Positions 1-5,162 of a stretch of 5,162 nt of DNA are shown here, in pieces (positions within the stretch are counted from its first letter, which is position 1; each line of letters begins with the position of its first letter). This DNA comes from Bacillota bacterium (GTDB taxonomy: Bacteria; Bacillota_E; Sulfobacillia; Sulfobacillales; Sulfobacillaceae), in contig JAKAAL010000405.1 in the NCBI GenBank assembly GCA_021802375.1, forward strand, positions 1-5,162. Direction: 5' to 3'. The notes below the pieces were generated by a model that worked only from the letters and a program-made list of their open reading frames with translations, had not been told where the DNA came from and did not search any database. Both the position numbers and the translations under genes were made by a program.

Positions 1-338
1 TGGAGGGGCTCGACCTTTCTTTGGCTACGCTGGTCGGCTTTGAAAACCATGGGGGCGTGACCTATCTCGGGCCTGATGCCACGCCTTTGGCCCGGGTAAG
101 CACGGGATCGGGCAACAACGGCGTGGATGGAAGCGAAGGCGTCGTGAGAAACCATGTGGTTGGCACCTATCTGCACGGATCATTGTTGCCGAAGAACCCC
201 CATTTGGCGGATCGGCTCATTTCCTGGGCCCTACGCTATGCGGAAATCCAAGACGCGTTCATGGCGGATCTGAACGATGAATGGGAGTATAGAGCGCATC
301 AGGCCATGCTCAGCCGCCAGTCAGAGCGGCATCGCTAA
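1..338 (+). CDS. gatD: Lipid II isoglutaminyl synthase, glutaminase subunit GatD (3' end only)
   Basis: The frame is open from the window edge (first complete codon at base 3) to TAA at 336-338, giving 111 residues of the C-terminal part. The motifs GFENHGG, GNNGVDGSEG and GTYLHGSLLPKNP are those of GatD, a class I (CobB/CobQ-like) glutamine amidotransferase. The His in TYLHG corresponds to the catalytic His of the Cys-His pair; the nucleophile Cys lies upstream of the window. In the known family GatD releases ammonia from glutamine and passes it to MurT, which amidates the alpha-carboxyl of D-Glu in the lipid II stem peptide at the inner face of the membrane. MurT is therefore expected just upstream. 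A TTG at 21 falls inside the conserved domain and is not the real start. The tail of about 25 residues after the domain is polar and charged. Identification is secure; only the missing 5' part limits it. Confidence 0.93.
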   Translation, partial: EGLDLSLATLVGFENHGGVTYLGPDATPLARVSTGSGNNGVDGSEGVVRNHVVGTYLHGSLLPKNPHLADRLISWALRYAEIQDAFMADLNDEWEYRAHQAMLSRQSERHR

Positions 339-347
339 GCCAAATCA

Positions 348-356
348 TGCTATACT
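348..356 (+). promoter_or_regulatory. Extended -10 promoter for the tatA-cysK-tRNA-Sec unit
   Basis: TGCTATACT fits the extended -10 pattern TGnTATAAT with one mismatch. It lies 9 nt after the gatD stop and would start transcription near base 363, about 50 nt ahead of tatA. No good -35 is seen at the usual distance, which is acceptable for an extended -10 promoter. It is the only promoter-like site between gatD and tatA. Confidence 0.5.
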
Positions 357-414
357 ATCGGCAGTGCGATACGACGAGAGGCTTTAGTTCTCCCTGCGGA
401 AAGAAGGGACGATG

Positions 415-615
415 ATGGATCTTTTGTCTCCGGTCCACATTTTATTGCTACTAATTGTAGCGTTGTTGGTGTTTGGACCGAACAAGCTTCCAGAAATCGG
501 GGCCGGACTCGGCCGAAGTATTCGTGAATTTAAGCAGGCGATGAGCGCTAGGGACAGTGGCCACGAGATACCCGCTCAAATGGTGACGAAGGACGACACT
601 GTGTCCAAGGACTGA
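415..615 (+). CDS. tatA: Sec-independent protein translocase protein TatA
   Basis: A 66-residue protein with the complete TatA/TatE plan: a short N-terminus, one transmembrane helix (about residues 4-20, LSPVHILLLLIVALLVF), the FGP hinge at 20-22, LPE at 25-27, an amphipathic helix to about residue 43 (GAGLGRSIREFKQAM), and a short polar tail. TatA oligomers form or line the pore through which folded twin-arginine proteins cross the cytoplasmic membrane, together with TatC. Two ATG codons in tandem, 412 and 415, could start it; AGAAGG at 402-407 is 7 nt from 415 but only 4 nt from 412, so 415 is preferred. Length is at the short end for the family. No tatC is visible here. cysK follows after 34 nt on the same strand, so the two are probably co-transcribed; nothing suggests a functional link between them. 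Confidence 0.93.
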   Translation: MDLLSPVHILLLLIVALLVFGPNKLPEIGAGLGRSIREFKQAMSARDSGHEIPAQMVTKDDTVSKD

Positions 616-649
616 GATCGCTCGCCAGCCTCATCTAAAGGAGCGAGCA

Positions 650-1642
650 ATGGCAAAGTTGGAGCGGCTGATTGGCCAGACCCCGCTGGTGCGTTTGGAG
701 CAAATCTCTGAACGGTATCAGTTAGAGGTGTTGGCGAAGTTGGAAGCCTTTAACCCAGGCGGTTCGATTAAGGATCGTACGGCCTGGTCCTTGGTGGCAG
801 ATGCTAAGTCCCGCGGACTCATCCATGCCGACACGGTGATCATTGAGGCGACCTCCGGAAACACGGGGATCGCCTTGGCTATGGTGTGCGCTGAACTGCA
901 TCTGCCCTTGGTGGTGTTTATGCCCAAAGGGCAAAGCATGGAACGAAAGCAGTTATTTTGGGCGTACGGCGCGACCGTGATTGAAACACCCCAGGCCGAA
1001 CGGACGCCGGGGGCGATTTTGCGGGCTAAAGCCTTAGCCGAAGTGATGCCCGAAGGCTTGATGTTGCGTCAGCATGAGAATCCCGCCAATCCGGAGGTCC
1101 ATGAAAAGACTACCGGACCCGAGATTTGGCAGGCCACCGACGGTCAAATTGACGTGTTCTTAGCTGGAGTGGGTACGGGGGGCACCATCACCGGAACGGG
1201 TCGCTTTCTCAAGGGAATGAATCCGGCCATTCAGGTGGTCGCGGTGGAACCCAAAACCTCGGCCGTGCTAAACGGGAAACCCGCGGGTGCCCATAAGATT
1301 CAGGGCATCGGCGCGGGATTTATCCCTGGGGTGTACGATTCCAGCGTCGTTGACATGGTTATTGATGTGGACGACGACGAGGCGTTAGCGGCCGTCCAGA
1401 TCCTTCCGAAAACGGAAGGACTTTTAGTCGGGATTTCTTCGGGCGCGGTCTATCGGGCCGCAGAAAGTCTGGCAGAGTCCGGGGCATACCAGGGAAAGCG
1501 CATGGTGCTTATCTTTGCCGATTCCGGTGAACGCTATCTTTCGACGGGAATTTATGCGCCCACGGATGACCAATGGGTCAAAGCGAGGCTTTCGCTCGAA
1601 GAGCAAGGAAAGGTTTTTGACAGCGTCGCGCAAAATCCGTAA
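650..1642 (+). CDS. cysK: Cysteine synthase (O-acetylserine sulfhydrylase, CysK/CysM family)
   Basis: A 330-residue fold-type II PLP enzyme of full family length. The PLP Schiff-base lysine is K41 in NPGGSIKDR (35-43). The substrate loop TSGNTG is at 68-73, the Gly-rich phosphate loop GTGGT at 175-179, the conserved KIQGIGAGFIP segment at 216-226, and the C-terminal pyridine-nitrogen motif DSGERYLST at 291-299. HEKTTGPEIW (151-160) is typical of CysK, while EATSGNTG resembles CysM, so the subtype is not fully settled. The known reaction is O-acetylserine plus sulfide giving cysteine and acetate in the cytoplasm; family members can also use other nucleophiles, including selenide in vitro. AAAGGAG at 637-643 lies 6 nt before the ATG and fixes the start. 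The gene sits between tatA (34 nt upstream) and the selenocysteine tRNA (14 nt downstream), with no promoter seen in either gap. Confidence 0.95.
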   Translation: MAKLERLIGQTPLVRLEQISERYQLEVLAKLEAFNPGGSIKDRTAWSLVADAKSRGLIHADTVIIEATSGNTGIALAMVCAELHLPLVVFMPKGQSMERKQLFWAYGATVIETPQAERTPGAILRAKALAEVMPEGLMLRQHENPANPEVHEKTTGPEIWQATDGQIDVFLAGVGTGGTITGTGRFLKGMNPAIQVVAVEPKTSAVLNGKPAGAHKIQGIGAGFIPGVYDSSVVDMVIDVDDDEALAAVQILPKTEGLLVGISSGAVYRAAESLAESGAYQGKRMVLIFADSGERYLSTGIYAPTDDQWVKARLSLEEQGKVFDSVAQNP

Positions 1643-1656
1643 AATTACCGTGAAGC

Positions 1657-1752
1657 GGGGGTAGGAGGGGGCTTGGTGCCTTCCTTGGACTTCAAATCCA
1701 ATGGCCGGCTTTAGAAGTCGGCGGTGGGTTCGATTCCCACATACTCCCGCCA
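1657..1752 (+). tRNA. selC: tRNA-Sec (anticodon TCA, reads UGA)
   Basis: The 96-nt sequence folds as a bacterial selenocysteine tRNA. The acceptor stem pairs 1657-1664 with 1741-1748: seven pairs including one G-U, and a G-A opposition at the eighth, inner position. The D stem pairs 1667-1672 with 1678-1683 (6 bp, two G-U) around the tiny loop TTGGT. The anticodon stem 1685-1689/1697-1701 closes the loop CTTCAAA, with anticodon TCA at 1692-1694. The long variable arm pairs 1704-1709 with 1717-1722. The T stem GTGGG/CCCAC (1724-1728/1736-1740) closes TTCGATT. The discriminator is G1749 and CCA is encoded at 1750-1752. The 8+5 acceptor/T pattern, 6-bp D stem and long variable arm are the known determinants for seryl-tRNA synthetase, SelA and SelB. 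Its presence implies that the host makes at least one selenoprotein. No SelA, SelB or SelD gene is in view. Confidence 0.97.
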
Positions 1753-1762
1753 AAATCAAGTT

Positions 1763-1790
1763 CCGCAATGATTTGCGGGTTTTTTATTTT
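1763..1790 (+). terminator. Rho-independent terminator after tRNA-Sec
   Basis: CCGCAA (1763-1768) and TTGCGG (1773-1778) form a perfect 6-bp stem around TGAT, followed by GTTTTTTATTTT (1779-1790). It begins 11 nt after the tRNA CCA and ends the tatA-cysK-tRNA unit. That both the tRNA 3' end and its own terminator are intact means that any element inserted here did so without removing this end, or entered beyond it. Confidence 0.88.
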
Positions 1791-1829
1791 GCGCTCAGGC
1801 GCGTCAAAAAGAAGCAGTGATGGCCCCGC

Positions 1830-2009
1830 GGGCCGCACGACGGGCCGCAGGAAATTCCACGCCATTCTCCAATGCGTTCCGCGACGCTTCACGAAATCCC
1901 TGAATGCCCCACGGCACTCCAGCACGATTTTCGACATTCCTAAAAGCGACCTCATAAAAAAATAGTCCGATCTGCCGGGTAGACCGGCGGGCCGCAGACA
2001 TGGGCCGCA
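1830..2009 (+). repeat. Four GGGCCGCA direct repeats in two pairs
   Basis: GGGCCGCA occurs at 1830-1837, 1842-1849, 1989-1996 and 2002-2009. Within each pair the copies start 12 and 13 bp apart, which puts them close to one helical turn; the pairs are 147-148 bp apart. Three of the four continue as GGGCCGCAG. An overlapping inverted core, GCGGCCC, is at 2041-2047. Paired 8-mers at helical spacing next to replication genes suggest protein-binding sites, either operators or iterons. Confidence 0.6.
1931..1958 (+). promoter_or_regulatory. Weak promoter candidate for the helicase-initiator operon
   Basis: TCGACA (1931-1936, five of six matches to TTGACA), a 16-nt spacer, and CATAAA (1953-1958, four of six matches to TATAAT) form the best sigma-70-like pair in the leader. 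Transcription would start near 1965, leaving an untranslated leader of about 260 nt. The site lies between the two GGGCCGCA pairs, so a protein bound to them could control it. Confidence 0.3.
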
Positions 2010-2013
2010 GAAA

Positions 2014-2038
2014 CATCCTGGTTCCCGTCTCCGGGATG
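2014..2038 (+). other. Leader stem-loop 1
   Basis: CATCCTGG (2014-2021) pairs with CCGGGATG (2031-2038), 8 bp with one T-G, around a 9-nt loop. It begins 4 nt after the last GGGCCGCA copy. No T-run follows, so it is not a terminator. Confidence 0.4.
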
Positions 2039-2064
2039 AGGCGGCCCCGTCCGTTTAACCCTTC

Positions 2065-2100
2065 AAGATTTAGGCCCCGATACCCAAGGGCCTGTATCTT
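2065..2100 (+). other. Leader stem-loop 2 (long imperfect hairpin)
   Basis: AAGAT (2065-2069) pairs with ATCTT (2096-2100), and AGGCCC (2072-2077) with GGGCCT (2088-2093). A T-G pair and one T-T mismatch lie between the two helices. That makes 12 pairs around a 10-nt loop, the longest hairpin of the leader. No T-run follows. Confidence 0.5.
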
Positions 2101-2115
2101 CACGCCTCAACGACG

Positions 2116-2158
2116 GGGACTGGTGCCTGATTTTGGCGAGGCGGTCGACAACAGTCCC
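2116..2158 (+). other. Leader stem-loop 3 (nested)
   Basis: GGGACTG (2116-2122) pairs perfectly with CAGTCCC (2152-2158). Inside it, GCCT (2125-2128) can pair with AGGC (2139-2142). The span between the outer arms is 29 nt, so formation as RNA is plausible but not certain. Confidence 0.4.
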
Positions 2159-2167
2159 ACAGGGTGC

Positions 2168-2190
2168 TCGGCCGCCGATAGCATGGCCGA
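2168..2190 (+). other. Leader stem-loop 4, just ahead of the helicase ribosome-binding site
   Basis: TCGGCC (2168-2173) pairs with GGCCGA (2185-2190) around an 11-nt loop. It ends 19 nt before the Shine-Dalgarno, which it leaves exposed. Confidence 0.35.
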
Positions 2191-2209
2191 CTCACTCTCG
2201 GGATGACAT

Positions 2210-2215
2210 AGGAGG
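2210..2215 (+). promoter_or_regulatory. Ribosome-binding site that sets the helicase start
   Basis: A perfect AGGAGG lies 7 nt upstream of ATG 2223. It excludes the in-frame ATG at 2133, which would add 30 residues, has no Shine-Dalgarno, and would translate stem-loops 3 and 4. Confidence 0.85.
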
Positions 2216-2222
2216 TATCTTC

Positions 2223-3551
2223 ATGACGACAGACGACACGCACAACCCCAGCAATCCCCCTGCCGGCCACCAAGCGGCCGAAGCGGGCAATCCCCCACAG
2301 TCGCGGCCTCGGAGTAACGTCGTCACGCTCATCGACGACGCCCGGCCACGGGCCACGGCAACCGCATCAGCAGACGGTGCCGCGGCCCCGCCACGGCATG
2401 CGGCGATCATTCGCAAAAATCAACCCAAGCCACCACTCAAGGGTCAGACCATGGTGGAGATTTGGGCCGATATCGCGCAGGTGCCCCCGGGTATCCCGGC
2501 ATTAGCGGCTCTCCAAGGCGTGCAGCCGCTTATCGCCTATCAGCCGGGGCTGAGCATTATTGCGGCCCCCACCAGTGCGGGAAAGACGACATTTCTGATG
2601 GCCCAAGTGGCCGAGTGGCTGTTGGGCCCGCAGTATTCGGGCAACATCCTCGTTTGGTCCGCAGAAACGCCGCGGCCGAAGCTGTGGGCGAAAATTATGG
2701 CCCAAGCCGCGAAAATGACCATGTGGCAGGTGATCGAAGACATCAAACAAACTCCCAGCCGGCAAGGTGCGTTGGTCCCGGAGCTTGAGCAGGCCCGGCA
2801 AGCGTTTGACTCGGTAGCGGAGCGCCTGGTGATCATGGACGAGGATACCACTGCGGTTGAGCTGTTGGAGGTCGCCGACCGGCTGGCCGCCCGCCCGGAC
2901 GGCCTCCTAGCAGTTGTGATCGACTACTTGCAAGAGCTCCCCGCCGTCTCCGACGATCATCCGTGGGCTGACCGACTCAGCCGGAATCGCGAACTGGAAA
3001 TTGGCTGGATTGCCCGCGAGTTGCGCCGATGGGGCATGCGGGCGGGCGTTCCGGTCTTAGCGGCCGCCCAGTTCAACCGCACTGTATCCAAAAGTTCCGG
3101 TTGGGTGCCTGATCTGTTGCAACTCCGGGAAAGCGGGCGGATCGAGCAAAACGCGGGGTTGGTTTTGGGGCTCCGAAACGAAACGATGAGCGGGGCGCAA
3201 CTGACGGCCCAGAGCAATGCCGGCGTCGCGCACTCGAAAACTTACGCATCGTGGGATCCGGACGCTCTGGAAATGGGCCGGCAGAGCGGCATGCTCAGTG
3301 TGCGGCATGAGCACCCGGCCGAAGACGAGTGGATCTTGCTGGAAGCGTTCGTCCTCAAAAATCGGGAGTACGGAGGCGTGGGGACGGTGGTACCGATGGC
3401 CCTGAACGCCGCGTGGGGCCGAATTGAGCCGCTACAGGCACGGATTACGGTCCACCCAGGGAGTTTCGGAAAAAGAGTCAAACAGGGCGCGCAGGAGGGG
3501 GACATCCATGACGAGGCAGACGAGCAAAAAATTCCGGACTGGCTCCAATAG
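2223..3551 (+). CDS. DnaB/RepA-type replicative helicase (RecA-fold domain, no DnaB N-terminal domain)
   Basis: A 442-residue protein. Residues 1-75 are rich in Pro, Ala and polar residues and look disordered. From about 95 to 400 it is a DnaB-family RecA-like motor. Walker A is APTSAGKTT (115-123, K121). H1a is WSAET with catalytic E148. Walker B is VVIDYLQEL with D234. H3 is AAQFNR with Q283, followed by the DnaB signature LRESGRIEQNAG (301-312). H4 is LKNREYG (378-384); K379 and R381 correspond to the lysine and arginine fingers that reach into the neighbouring subunit. The C-terminus is acidic. Such proteins form hexameric rings that unwind DNA at forks. The helical N-terminal domain by which DnaB meets primase and loader is absent, as in the compact RepA helicase of IncQ plasmids, though this protein is much longer. 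The initiator gene overlaps its last 44 nt. A RecA-like regulator of the KaiC/RadA type is less likely given the LRESG and KNR motifs. Confidence 0.88.
   Translation: MTTDDTHNPSNPPAGHQAAEAGNPPQSRPRSNVVTLIDDARPRATATASADGAAAPPRHAAIIRKNQPKPPLKGQTMVEIWADIAQVPPGIPALAALQGVQPLIAYQPGLSIIAAPTSAGKTTFLMAQVAEWLLGPQYSGNILVWSAETPRPKLWAKIMAQAAKMTMWQVIEDIKQTPSRQGALVPELEQARQAFDSVAERLVIMDEDTTAVELLEVADRLAARPDGLLAVVIDYLQELPAVSDDHPWADRLSRNRELEIGWIARELRRWGMRAGVPVLAAAQFNRTVSKSSGWVPDLLQLRESGRIEQNAGLVLGLRNETMSGAQLTAQSNAGVAHSKTYASWDPDALEMGRQSGMLSVRHEHPAEDEWILLEAFVLKNREYGGVGTVVPMALNAAWGRIEPLQARITVHPGSFGKRVKQGAQEGDIHDEADEQKIPDWLQ
3493..3498 (+). promoter_or_regulatory. Ribosome-binding site inside the helicase gene that sets the initiator start
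   Basis: AGGAGG at 3493-3498, followed by GGG, lies 9 nt before ATG 3508, within the last codons of the helicase gene. It supports 3508 over the earlier in-frame ATG at 3424 and the later ATG at 3664, neither of which has a comparable site. The overlap points to coupled translation. Confidence 0.8.
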
Positions 3552-4356
3552 GAGCGGAAGATCACGTGTGACAGGGCCGCCTGCCGGCCCCGTCATCGCC
3601 CCGGCGATTATTAGTCGTGTCCCAACGTTCCAGCCCACCTTCCGGCGAGGACAACCGCGGGGCATGGACGACACCTTCACGACACAGTTTGGCACCGTAA
3701 GGGTCGCTGGACGACTGACGGAGACGCATCGGAAGGTGCTGGATGCCATCTTTGCTACGGCTATCGAGGAATACGACATGCCGACTGGAGCTAAGGCATT
3801 CCTGGTCGATCCGTATCAACTTGCCAAAGTCGCGAATGTGAACCACAAGCCGGCATGGCTTGCCACGCTGATGCGAGACATGCGTCATGCTGACGTTCTG
3901 ATCGTCGACCACAAAACTGGGTTGGAACACCATGCCGGGATCGTCAGTGAATATCGCGAGTCACCTCGGCGGGTACAGCTACCCGGCGGCGCTCTACACG
4001 GCGATCGACCACTCATGATCGTGACCATCAGTAGCGCATGGATGCGTATCTACCGGGCCAGCTTGACGGTTCGATACCGAAGCGTGCTATCAATTATTAA
4101 CCAGGCCCGACATGCCGCAACCCACGCGTTGGCACTGCACATTTTGACCAATACCCAGTATAGTCGTGCGCTGGCCCAGAGTCTGACGGAAATCGGGGCC
4201 TGGCGTGACGATATGAGCGATCGCGGTCGGCGGAAGGTCGTGGCTGAGGTGTTGGACGAGGCGGACCTATTAAACAAGCTCGGTATTACCATCGACCGAG
4301 GCATCGTGCATTATCGGCAGCATCACATGGTGCATTTCAGCAATCCCGTGTCGTGA
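3508..4356 (+). CDS. Putative replication initiator, two winged-helix domains (IncQ RepC-like architecture)
   Basis: A 282-residue basic protein. Residues 1-50 are Arg/Ser/Pro rich and probably unstructured. A first winged-helix-like unit runs from about 65 to 150: LTETHRKVLDAIF, then YQLAKVANV, then WLATLMRDMRHADVLIVD, then a strand and GIVSEYR. A second runs from about 168 to 270: LMIVTISSAWMRIY, RSVLSIINQARHAATHALALHIL, SLTEIGAW, and RGRRKVVAEVLDEADLLNKLGI. Duplicated winged helices with the pattern helix, LAK, then IxxLxxAxVL are the plan of plasmid initiators such as RepC of IncQ, TrfA and Rep_3 proteins, which bind iterons and open the origin. The length, the place after a DnaB-like helicase with a 44-nt overlap, and the palindrome-rich region right behind it all agree. 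I do not recognise a close named relative. A transcription regulator is the main alternative. No catalytic motif (relaxase or primase) is seen. Confidence 0.65.
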   Translation: MTRQTSKKFRTGSNRSGRSRVTGPPAGPVIAPAIISRVPTFQPTFRRGQPRGMDDTFTTQFGTVRVAGRLTETHRKVLDAIFATAIEEYDMPTGAKAFLVDPYQLAKVANVNHKPAWLATLMRDMRHADVLIVDHKTGLEHHAGIVSEYRESPRRVQLPGGALHGDRPLMIVTISSAWMRIYRASLTVRYRSVLSIINQARHAATHALALHILTNTQYSRALAQSLTEIGAWRDDMSDRGRRKVVAEVLDEADLLNKLGITIDRGIVHYRQHHMVHFSNPVS

Positions 4357-4390
4357 GGACGGAAGCGGAACCTATTTCCACGGCCTCCCA

Positions 4391-4414
4391 AGAGATCTCT
4401 AGAGATATCTAGAG
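4391..4414. repeat. Tandem near-identical decamers with nested palindromes
   Basis: AGAGATCTCT (4391-4400, itself a perfect palindrome) is followed directly by AGAGATATCT (4401-4410) and AGAG. The stretch can also fold as CTCTAGA (4397-4403), loop GATA, TCTAGAG (4408-4414). It is more A/T rich than its surroundings and abuts the 13-bp inverted repeat. Confidence 0.6.
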
Positions 4415-4453
4415 AGCGGTGGGGACACTCCTCAAAGTCCTGTCCCCACCGCT
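4415..4453. repeat. Perfect 13-bp inverted repeat
   Basis: AGCGGTGGGGACA (4415-4427) and TGTCCCCACCGCT (4441-4453) are exact complements around a 13-nt spacer. The arms are G+C rich. The sequence after it is ACCCCTTG, without a T-run, so it is not a standard Rho-independent terminator for the upstream gene, although it may still slow or stop transcription. A single-strand initiation hairpin or initiator-binding site is the alternative. Confidence 0.75.
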
Positions 4454-4458
4454 ACCCC

Positions 4459-4470
4459 TTGTGATCACAA
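4459..4470. repeat. 12-bp perfect palindrome
   Basis: TTGTGATCACAA is fully self-complementary with no spacer and is followed by a short A-run (4471-4474). It lies 5 nt after the 13-bp inverted repeat. Confidence 0.55.
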
Positions 4471-4476
4471 AAAAGG

Positions 4477-4485
4477 CTGTCCACA
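4477..4485 (+). promoter_or_regulatory. DnaA-box-like site
   Basis: CTGTCCACA differs by one base from TTGTCCACA, the form of the DnaA box common in G+C-rich Gram-positives, and by two from TTATCCACA. It stands alone between two 12-bp palindromes. A single box may be chance. Confidence 0.35.
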
Positions 4486-4490
4486 GTGGC

Positions 4491-4502
4491 CCGGCATGCC
4501 GG
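4491..4502. repeat. 12-bp perfect palindrome
   Basis: CCGGCATGCCGG is fully self-complementary. The core GCATGCC recurs at 4533-4539. It is the third symmetric site within 90 bp. Confidence 0.5.
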
Positions 4503-4579
4503 CGCGCGATCGTCGATGGCCCGTACCTGGGCGCATGCCCCTACACGCTCAACTCGTGATGATGGGTCGGGGGCCTTCG

Positions 4580-4589
4580 TCGTTAACGA
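4580..4589. repeat. 10-bp palindrome
   Basis: TCGTTAACGA is fully self-complementary and lies 13 nt ahead of the A/T-rich inverted repeat. Confidence 0.4.
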
Positions 4590-4602
4590 GGCCGGGCGTG
4601 GC

Positions 4603-4626
4603 GAAAAAAGTACTCGTACTTTTTTC
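4603..4626. repeat. A/T-rich 11-bp inverted repeat
   Basis: GAAAAAAGTAC (4603-4613) and GTACTTTTTTC (4616-4626) are exact complements separated by TC. The A-run on one side and T-run on the other are symmetric, so it could act as a weak terminator in either direction between the converging genes. It could equally be the easily melted element of an origin, or an operator. The stem has few G-C pairs, so it would be a weak terminator. Confidence 0.6.
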
Positions 4627-4682
4627 AATGATGCTACCCTACGCGCCTCGGATGTTCACGCCGCGACACCGGCAACCCACCC

Positions 4683-4692
4683 GGCGGCCGCC
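4683..4692. repeat. 10-bp G/C palindrome
   Basis: GGCGGCCGCC is self-complementary. In such G+C-rich sequence this may be chance. Confidence 0.25.
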
Positions 4693-4794
4693 ATGCGCGT
4701 CGCACGCCGCCCTATTCGAAGCTCGGCCCCATTCGCCGCGGAAGGCCACCCTGACCAAATCTATGCACGTGCCTTGGATTGCAACATGTTCGTG

Positions 4795-5070
4795 CTAAAA
4801 CGGAAGATCATCAAGACTCAGGTCGTCGCTTTGACCGGTATCCGTCTCGGCAAATAACACTAATCGATTTTCCTTAAAATAGCTTTCGGCTCCGCACAAC
4901 TCACAATAGGCTTCGTCTGCGTCCAACGGCATATCACACGGGACACATCGGTTCGTCAGCGGCGTTCCACAATATCGGCAGTAAACTGCTTCAGAACGTT
5001 TGGCCGGAATGTCACATCGGGGGCAATATTGGGTGTTTTCGTTATACCCCTCGCAGACGACAATTAACGA
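4795..5070 (-). CDS. Double zinc-ribbon protein with SSB-like acidic C-terminal tip (start not found)
   Basis: The minus-strand frame is open from 5070 down to TAG at 4795-4797, 91 codons. It has four Cys pairs, CPRC, CRYC, CVPC and CELC, spaced 11, 7 and 10 residues apart, giving two zinc ribbons in a row. After them comes a short linker and an acidic tail ending SDDLSLDDLPF at the stop codon. DDLPF matches the C-terminal tip of bacterial SSB (DDDLPF or DDDIPF), which docks DNA-repair and replication proteins; no OB fold is seen, so this is not SSB itself. No ATG, GTG or TTG occurs between the preceding in-frame TAA (5071-5073) and the first CxxC. The first ATG falls inside the second ribbon, and only an ATT at 5062-5064 is available, without a Shine-Dalgarno. 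The gene is therefore probably the 3' half of one broken by that TAA. Zinc-ribbon identity is clear; function is not known. Confidence 0.7.
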   Translation of the reverse strand, partial: SLIVVCEGYNENTQYCPRCDIPAKRSEAVYCRYCGTPLTNRCVPCDMPLDADEAYCELCGAESYFKENRLVLFAETDTGQSDDLSLDDLPF

Positions 5071-5162
5071 TTAGGCCGCGTTATCGAAGAGTTGAAATTT
5101 CAGGGTTAATAAGGACGTTAATTTGTGTTGAAAATCCGAATCCTGGTTTTCCAAGGTTTTCA
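5071..5162 (-). pseudogene. Upstream open frame, in frame with the zinc-ribbon protein and ending at TAA
   Basis: Reading in from the right edge on the minus strand, the same frame as the zinc-ribbon protein is open for 29 residues and ends at TAA 5071-5073. The peptide is polar with regularly spaced Leu and Phe (LENQDSDFQHKL, TSLLTLKFQLF), as in a short amphipathic helix. It could be the N-terminal part of the zinc-ribbon protein, cut by a nonsense change, or the end of a separate upstream gene. Shared frame and the missing start codon downstream favour the first reading. The window edge prevents a decision. Confidence 0.4.

Follow-up and report, generated by a model that had tools for sequence, protein, structure and literature searches.

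What protein would join zinc ribbons to the acidic ending of a bacterial SSB is the question raised by a reading frame on the minus strand of the DNA analysed here, a stretch of 5,162 nucleotides from a Bacillota bacterium that we call the window. Between positions 4795 and 5070 a run of 91 codons is open, with TDTGQSDDLSLDDLPF right up to the stop codon, and its translation contains four CxxC pairs that match the Pfam family DZR with 33.7 bits, above the curated cut-off of 27.3. A preliminary description of the sequence had seen here a zinc-ribbon protein with a DDLPF end, without an OB fold and without a named family, that could bind DNA by its ribbons and bring the host's SSB partners to a neighbouring replication origin. 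The open frame, the ribbons and a tip far above chance all stand, but the frame is not a gene of its own: it represents the C-terminal portion of a gene for an ImmA/IrrE metallopeptidase, severed at 5043 by an IS630-type element. Below we reconstruct the complete protein from its relatives, ask whether the tip exceeds chance and follows the SSB of the host, and weigh what such a tip could do on a peptidase of mobile elements.

An insertion sequence cuts the gene in the window

The first sign that the frame is incomplete lies in its own codons, in which ATG, GTG and TTG are absent until codon 47, the near-starts ahead of that codon being two ATT codons and one CTG. The second is a shared DNA end starting with TATAC, which lies at 5043 in the window and is found at six places in all, once in the window and five times in genome G098, each time with different flanking DNA. 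Because the same end recurs at these six places, the first codons of the frame are insertion sequence (IS) DNA, and from the repeated DNA running outward from 5043 it follows that the peptidase gene was cut by the IS and that the N-terminus of the frame is IS sequence. The 62-residue transposase end gave no match in a Pfam search; a longer piece in another copy, L071, encodes part of a DDE_3 transposase, which we take as the mark of IS630-type elements. A free-standing novel gene in the window is therefore ruled out by the junction and the missing start. The features of the window are listed in Table 1.

Table 1. Features of the 5,162-nucleotide window, with the evidence for each
Feature	Position	Strand	Evidence
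tRNA-Sec gene	1657..1752	+	similarity to relative G102 ends about here
DnaB_C-like helicase gene, replication-type	2223..3551	+	Pfam DnaB_C E 1.1e-27
310-codon ORF	3424..4356	+	matches in 6/154 genomes of G001's class; Pfam scan without match
3' remnant of ImmA/IrrE (M78)-zinc-ribbon-SSB-tip gene, IS junction to stop codon	4795..5042	-	tblastn 82% to L001; DNA 79% over 4782-5045; dN/dS 0.11 against L001
Double zinc ribbon, eight Cys in four CxxC pairs	4894..5025	-	Pfam DZR E 4.2e-8; 8/8 Cys aligned with L001
Acidic linker and SSB-like tip, AETDTGQSDDLSLDDLPF	4798..4851	-	sequence; family conservation; SSB of near-identical genome G098 ends PDDLPF
DDLPF itself	4798-4812	-	sequence
End of IS630-type insertion sequence, running off the window edge; transposase stop codon 5071-5073	5043..5162	-	five further G098 copies that share this end but not the flanks; DDE_3 in copy L071, E 2.5e-13

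The closest relative found is L001, from a Bacillota metagenome-assembled genome (G001), whose translation shares 82% identity with the frame over query residues 8-74. The L001 protein is 275 residues long, has a Peptidase_M78 domain (Pfam E 9.6e-19) with the HExxH motif and downstream Glu also seen in the family members below, carries the window-like part as its C-terminus and ends SDDLGLDDADLPF; its DZR score, 25.7 bits, falls just under the Pfam cut-off. The M78 domain is missing from the window fragment, having been cut off, and neither an OB fold nor an SSB domain was found in Pfam scans of the fragment and the L001 protein, so that the earlier view of ribbons and tip without an OB fold was correct but incomplete, the full protein being an ImmA/IrrE metallopeptidase. 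Between the window and L001 the ribbons have a dN/dS of 0.09 and the linker with the tip one of 0.16, and where the two tips share codons, at DD and LPF, all differences are silent, with a length difference of two codons between DD and LPF. We read this low ratio as selection from before the IS cut.

The window copy, having lost its peptidase, is most likely a pseudogene or decaying remnant. That the fragment works as a small ribbon-and-tip protein, as in Streptococcus phage Clyde, seems improbable to us. Phages do have stand-alone forms, and when proteins were searched with the final 86 residues of the frame, a single database cluster turned up, made of 89-residue proteins (3 member sequences from 9 contigs, the longest of 142,981 bases) that are the same as the frame from their second residue on; against this stand the missing start ahead of codon 47 and an N-terminus made of IS sequence. 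Window DNA from 4400 to 5162 had no matches among plasmids, and neither the window-type protein nor the L001 protein, as single queries, found relatives in the viral contigs. A sliding-clamp motif judged by eye in the frame was dropped, as it is not kept in L001.

A family of ribbon-bearing peptidases in phages and genomes

Relatives were gathered from phage records, viral contigs and genomes of G001's phylum. The absence of a named family, as first supposed, does not hold, since phrog_19315 (348 positions, M78 and ribbons, listed with unknown function) already covers the family: it is matched by L001 (72.7 bits in two stretches) and by four phage proteins, including those of SDFMU_Pfc (259.2 bits) and Javan249 (370.5 bits), while the window fragment reaches 41.8 bits in the ribbon part only. 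The best stretches stop at profile positions 318-332, short of the tip. Among 398 genomes of G001's phylum 11 match at E 1e-20, eight of them with ribbons; of two smaller classes, one gave 1 of 15 genomes (G454, already among the 11) and the other 2 of 26, namely G545 as a new one besides the known G521. Across 22 aligned members there is no variation in the HExGH motif, in the downstream Glu or in seven Cys of the ribbons. The family can thus be described as an M78 peptidase followed by zinc ribbons, a variable linker and, in 26 of 43 clusters, an acidic [LIVF]PF tip.

The endings vary around a common theme. The member in Bacillus phage SDFMU_Pfc ends DEDPDFPF, viral-contig members end DIDDLPF, TDDDIPF, SEDDLPF or LEDDIPF, and genome copies end SDDDLPF, NDDDLPF or NYEVPF. 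In L103, HTH domains, peptidase, ribbons and tip form a single chain of 620 residues, and at the other extreme ribbons and tip occur as free-standing ORFs in Clyde, Javan291, L083, L094 and L163, those of the Streptococcus phages Clyde and Javan291 being 78 residues long and ending SDEDLPF and SDDDLPF respectively. The Javan291 ORF (L080 4001-4234), without annotation in its record, is 72% identical to that of Clyde. Directly 3' of the Clyde ORF lies a DUF3800 gene (Pfam match; L074 4228-4962), and directly 3' of the Javan291 ORF a gene of the same length (L080 4237-4971); two similar genes lie 3' of the ribbon-and-tip ORFs in L094 (4330-5532) and L163 (5601-6812), and by eye these resemble what we take to be three-Cys-motif partner proteins.

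Several other loci border on the family. The DZR proteins L005-L007, L009-L011 and L013 of G001's class were set aside as unrelated, having only ribbons in common; L008 is a tipless family member. Four peptidases (L105, L107, L109 and L085), some with ribbons and some without, are tipless and carry an alternative C-terminal stretch, alike by eye, for which Pfam gave no match; a DnaX- or DnaA-like identity for this stretch in L085, L105 and L107 was considered but is not claimed, Pfam having given nothing. A further member, L204, was found after the counts were made and hence lies outside them.

The tip is well above chance

To count tips we used a strict rule, PF at the end and at least two acidic residues among the last eight. 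By this rule the tip is found in 24 of the 42 M78-like ORFs with ribbons (which include L094 and L163, with the tip in a separate ORF, and L160, with an apparent frameshift) and in none of the 58 without ribbons (which include a doubtful one in L083), giving a Fisher p of 4e-12, where M78-like ORFs are those with a stop codon and the HExxH-plus-Glu pattern, in part confirmed by Pfam, and identical last 80 residues count once. Of the remaining 2932 ORFs with 90 codons or more in the same loci only seven have such an end, one being the SSB of G001 and three being ribbon-and-tip ORFs of the family. Grouped at 70% identity the 49 members form 43 clusters, of which 26 have a tip, 5 a near tip and 12 none under a slightly looser rule (two acidic residues in the last nine). 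The last four columns carry 2.5, 2.2, 1.7 and 2.0 bits of information and the two preceding ones 1.2 bits, and from -7 to -20 the value is below 1. Conservation at the exact C-terminus, the check first proposed, is thus borne out in these 26 clusters, and the acidic PF tip is real and well above chance.

The case that the preliminary description had named as refuting, ribbons without the tip, nonetheless occurs, in the 12 tipless clusters. Five of these have a reason, as L085, L094, L105 and L163 run on past the ribbons into another stretch (in L094 and L163 a second, overlapping ORF encodes ribbons and tip) and L160 looks like the tipped L141 after a frameshift; seven have none that is evident (L008, L081, L096, L102, L114, L179 and L180), and for this reason the tip must be regarded as non-essential to the architecture. 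The hits of one viral-contig search were confirmed with a tip-bearing query, which may favour tipped relatives. In counts by eye, the 16 new ribbon-bearing members of a later viral-contig search include 7 with a strict and 4 with a near tip, and the 8 ribbon-bearing of the 11 genome hits include 5 with a strict tip, or 6 under a slightly looser rule, the end of L101 being equal to that of L093. Among 30 M78 loci of one search the tip was noted only in G001's own, a count that covers all of them but L025.

Could the acidic PF end nevertheless be a functionless tail, owed to chance or inherited with the lineage? Its absence from 12 clusters would fit, and a precedent exists in DdrB, whose purported SSB-like tail is reported to be unnecessary for radioresistance (PMC3834827) and therefore warns against inferring function from such a tail. 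We nevertheless consider this highly improbable in view of a tip conserved behind variable linkers, its absence from all ribbon-less M78-like ORFs, the silent differences in the shared tip codons of the window and L001, and the match to SSB described below.

The genes lie behind repressors on mobile elements

The gene directly 5' of the peptidase encodes an HTH_3 protein in 34 of 37 cases, L001 among them (37 of 44 ORFs, after removal of seven that were duplicates or lay beside stand-alone ORFs). For the window copy such a gene would be located outside the window. The downstream gene, taken as the largest on the same strand with 180 or more codons in the 2.6 kb that follow, is a Phage_integrase in 21 and a Resolvase in 4 of 34 cases (34 of 39 ORFs, with five duplicates left out), three of the 34 following stand-alone ribbon ORFs; in L001 it encodes a GGDEF protein. 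Of the 48 entries, 4 upstream and 9 downstream had no ORF by the selection rule. Asked at first whether they lie near replication genes or mobile elements, the homologues prove to lie on mobile elements and phages; a role at a neighbouring replication origin is unsupported, the usual neighbours being a repressor and often an integrase, and the layout of HTH gene, peptidase and integrase is that of the immunity switch of an element and not that of an origin. Several of the partner HTH proteins (L075, L086 and L092) end in acidic runs, for example EDEDEDEDI, for which a role in recognition by the peptidase is possible.

The stand-alone ORFs sit directly behind a CI-like repressor gene in Clyde, an ORF of unknown kind in L083 and, in Javan291, a gene annotated as RelE/StbE toxin, with the repressor further up. 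The existence of such peptidase-free forms (Clyde, Javan291 and L083) is what one would expect of an SSB decoy, a tip that ties up RecO, RecQ and PriA and damps host repair and the SOS response for as long as the element is active, unrelated to any sensing by the peptidase, and ICEBs1 is described as having genes for further factors that modulate the RecA response of its host (PMC11841131). A decoy is in our view unlikely, however, as the tip is fused to the peptidase in 23 of the 26 tipped clusters, mostly behind an HTH gene, an arrangement that fits a switch and not an abundant decoy.

At residue -3 the tip mostly agrees with the SSB of the same genome

If the tip competes for the pockets that host proteins use for SSB, as we propose, then for that reason it would be expected to follow the sequence of the host's SSB. 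SSB ends were taken from 11 genomes, of which G447 and G375 were left out of the comparison as their members are tipless although their SSBs have tips; the ribbon-less G157, G182 and G187 are not included. The window was paired with the SSB of its close relative G098, itself without a ribbon match. The resulting nine pairs (SSB end, then family end) are PDDLPF and LDDLPF for G098 and the window, PDDLPF and DADLPF for G001, DDDIPF and FGDIPF for G354, EDEVPF and LEDIPF for G385, DDDLPF and DDDLPF for both G327 and G454, GNEVPF and NYEVPF for G521 (which has a second, tipless SSB), GDGVPF and EESVPF for G545, and SGDPPF and NDNFPF for G322. At residue -3 the tip equals the SSB of the same genome in seven of the nine, both V-bearing family members included. 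The exact permutation p is 0.0016, or 0.0036 with the window and G001 counted once and 0.0095 with G521 and G545 merged as well, kinship being handled in this small, tree-free comparison by such merging only.

This agreement favours an external host partner over a tip that acts within its own molecule, although SSB itself as the target would fit it too. For E. coli it is reported that the SSB tip, besides its at least 17 partners, can bind unoccupied DNA-binding sites of SSB that are later filled by ssDNA (PMC7145534), and by that precedent the tip could dock on the OB core of SSB or on a basic surface of the peptidase and be freed when ssDNA fills the site, as a switch of autoinhibition. We rate this as distinctly unlikely.

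Relation to known peptidase switches and a proposed mechanism

Compared with solved structures, the family profile (A4) matches CapP best (E 1.2e-14), followed by IrrE (5.8e-5) and PprI (2.4e-4). An AF2 model of the L001 protein is of middling quality, with a mean pLDDT of 69 and about 50-60 in the tail; its first structural match is a transcriptional regulator of Mycobacterium tuberculosis (6cz6, E 6.4e-5) and its third is PprI with ssDNA (8sln, E 7.6e-5), about 160 of the 275 residues being aligned in the model matches. IrrE/PprI of Deinococcus (PDB 3dte, 8slm, 8sln), an M78 peptidase to which profile and model both lead, cleaves the repressor DdrO, but has a GAF-like domain where our family has zinc ribbons and the SSB-like tip. 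CapP of CapP-CapH in CBASS (PDB 7t5t), likewise a peptidase with a repressor partner, belongs to an immune pathway. A close parallel is ImmA/ImmR of ICEBs1 and TnSmu1, where mobile elements again pair the gene of an M78 peptidase with that of an HTH repressor, with activation by damage and repressor cleavage that is shown or proposed; the descriptions by which alone we compare (PMC10233336, PMC11841131) mention neither ribbon nor SSB-like tip. In phrog_19315 the M78 domain and ribbons are shared, while its label is function-less and its matches stop short of the tip, and bacterial SSB shares the acidic [LIV]PF end but has the OB fold that is missing in the family. Among titles and abstract beginnings in open-access PMC we recognised no published description of an SSB-like tip on ImmA/IrrE.

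What activates ImmA-type peptidases in Gram-positive phages and integrative elements is unsettled, and the SSB-like tip points to a concrete candidate network in the host. PprI is reported to be activated by ssDNA, as is the cleavage of CapH by CapP (PMC10904395). In the pneumococcal prophage 08B02743, according to a 2025 study, excision rises without RecA and a response of its ImmAR to ssDNA alone or to another ssDNA-associated protein is suggested, while RMV4, a second ImmAR prophage, is said there to need RecA (PMC12637031).

On the sequences we have compared, we hold it somewhat more likely than not that the repressor peptidases of mobile elements plug into the network of SSB partners and so detect single-stranded DNA or replication that has stalled. 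The comparison shows architecture and conservation, while the partner, the binding of DNA by the ribbons and the cleavage of the repressor are deduced. In this mechanism the tip would occupy the SSB-binding pocket of host proteins, RecO, PriA and RecQ for example, or else bind the core of SSB, which would place the peptidase where SSB-coated single-stranded DNA accumulates, at damaged or stalled forks; the ribbons would bind DNA or the repressor; and the peptidase would cleave the HTH repressor and switch the element on, by analogy with ImmA/ImmR of ICEBs1 and with PprI/DdrO. DNA damage or stalled replication would in this way be converted into repressor cleavage. More tentatively, it is possible that induction peptidases of phages and integrative elements carry a copy of the host-SSB tail that tracks the host SSB, that lysogeny control reads the condition of replication forks via the SSB network, without RecA or beside it, and that in some phages the sensor has been split off as a small ribbon-and-tip adaptor near a CI-type repressor. 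The family is also a further class of SSB-tip mimics among proteins other than SSB, and its members could serve as tools to map SSB partners.

The rest of the window and its integration site

A replication-type gene does adjoin the frame, as first noted, in the form of the DnaB_C-like ORF. Positions 1-3749 of the window are 100% identical in G098, which is the window's species or one very close to it; positions 3750-5037 found no match there. The G098 counterpart of the 310-codon ORF is broken by an apparent IS3-type element (by eye from ORFs; L051 about 1490, facing window 3749).

Because similarity to the relative G102 ends at about the tRNA-Sec gene, the mobile element in the window appears to be inserted beside this gene and to start near it. 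The tRNA-Sec gene looks like a favoured integration site. Several genomes of the class contain partial 3' copies of 63-71 bp, for example at G001:C123:484-548, and three partial copies lie on G098:C44 near 11886, 15329 and 18613, with a spacing of 3.3-3.4 kb.
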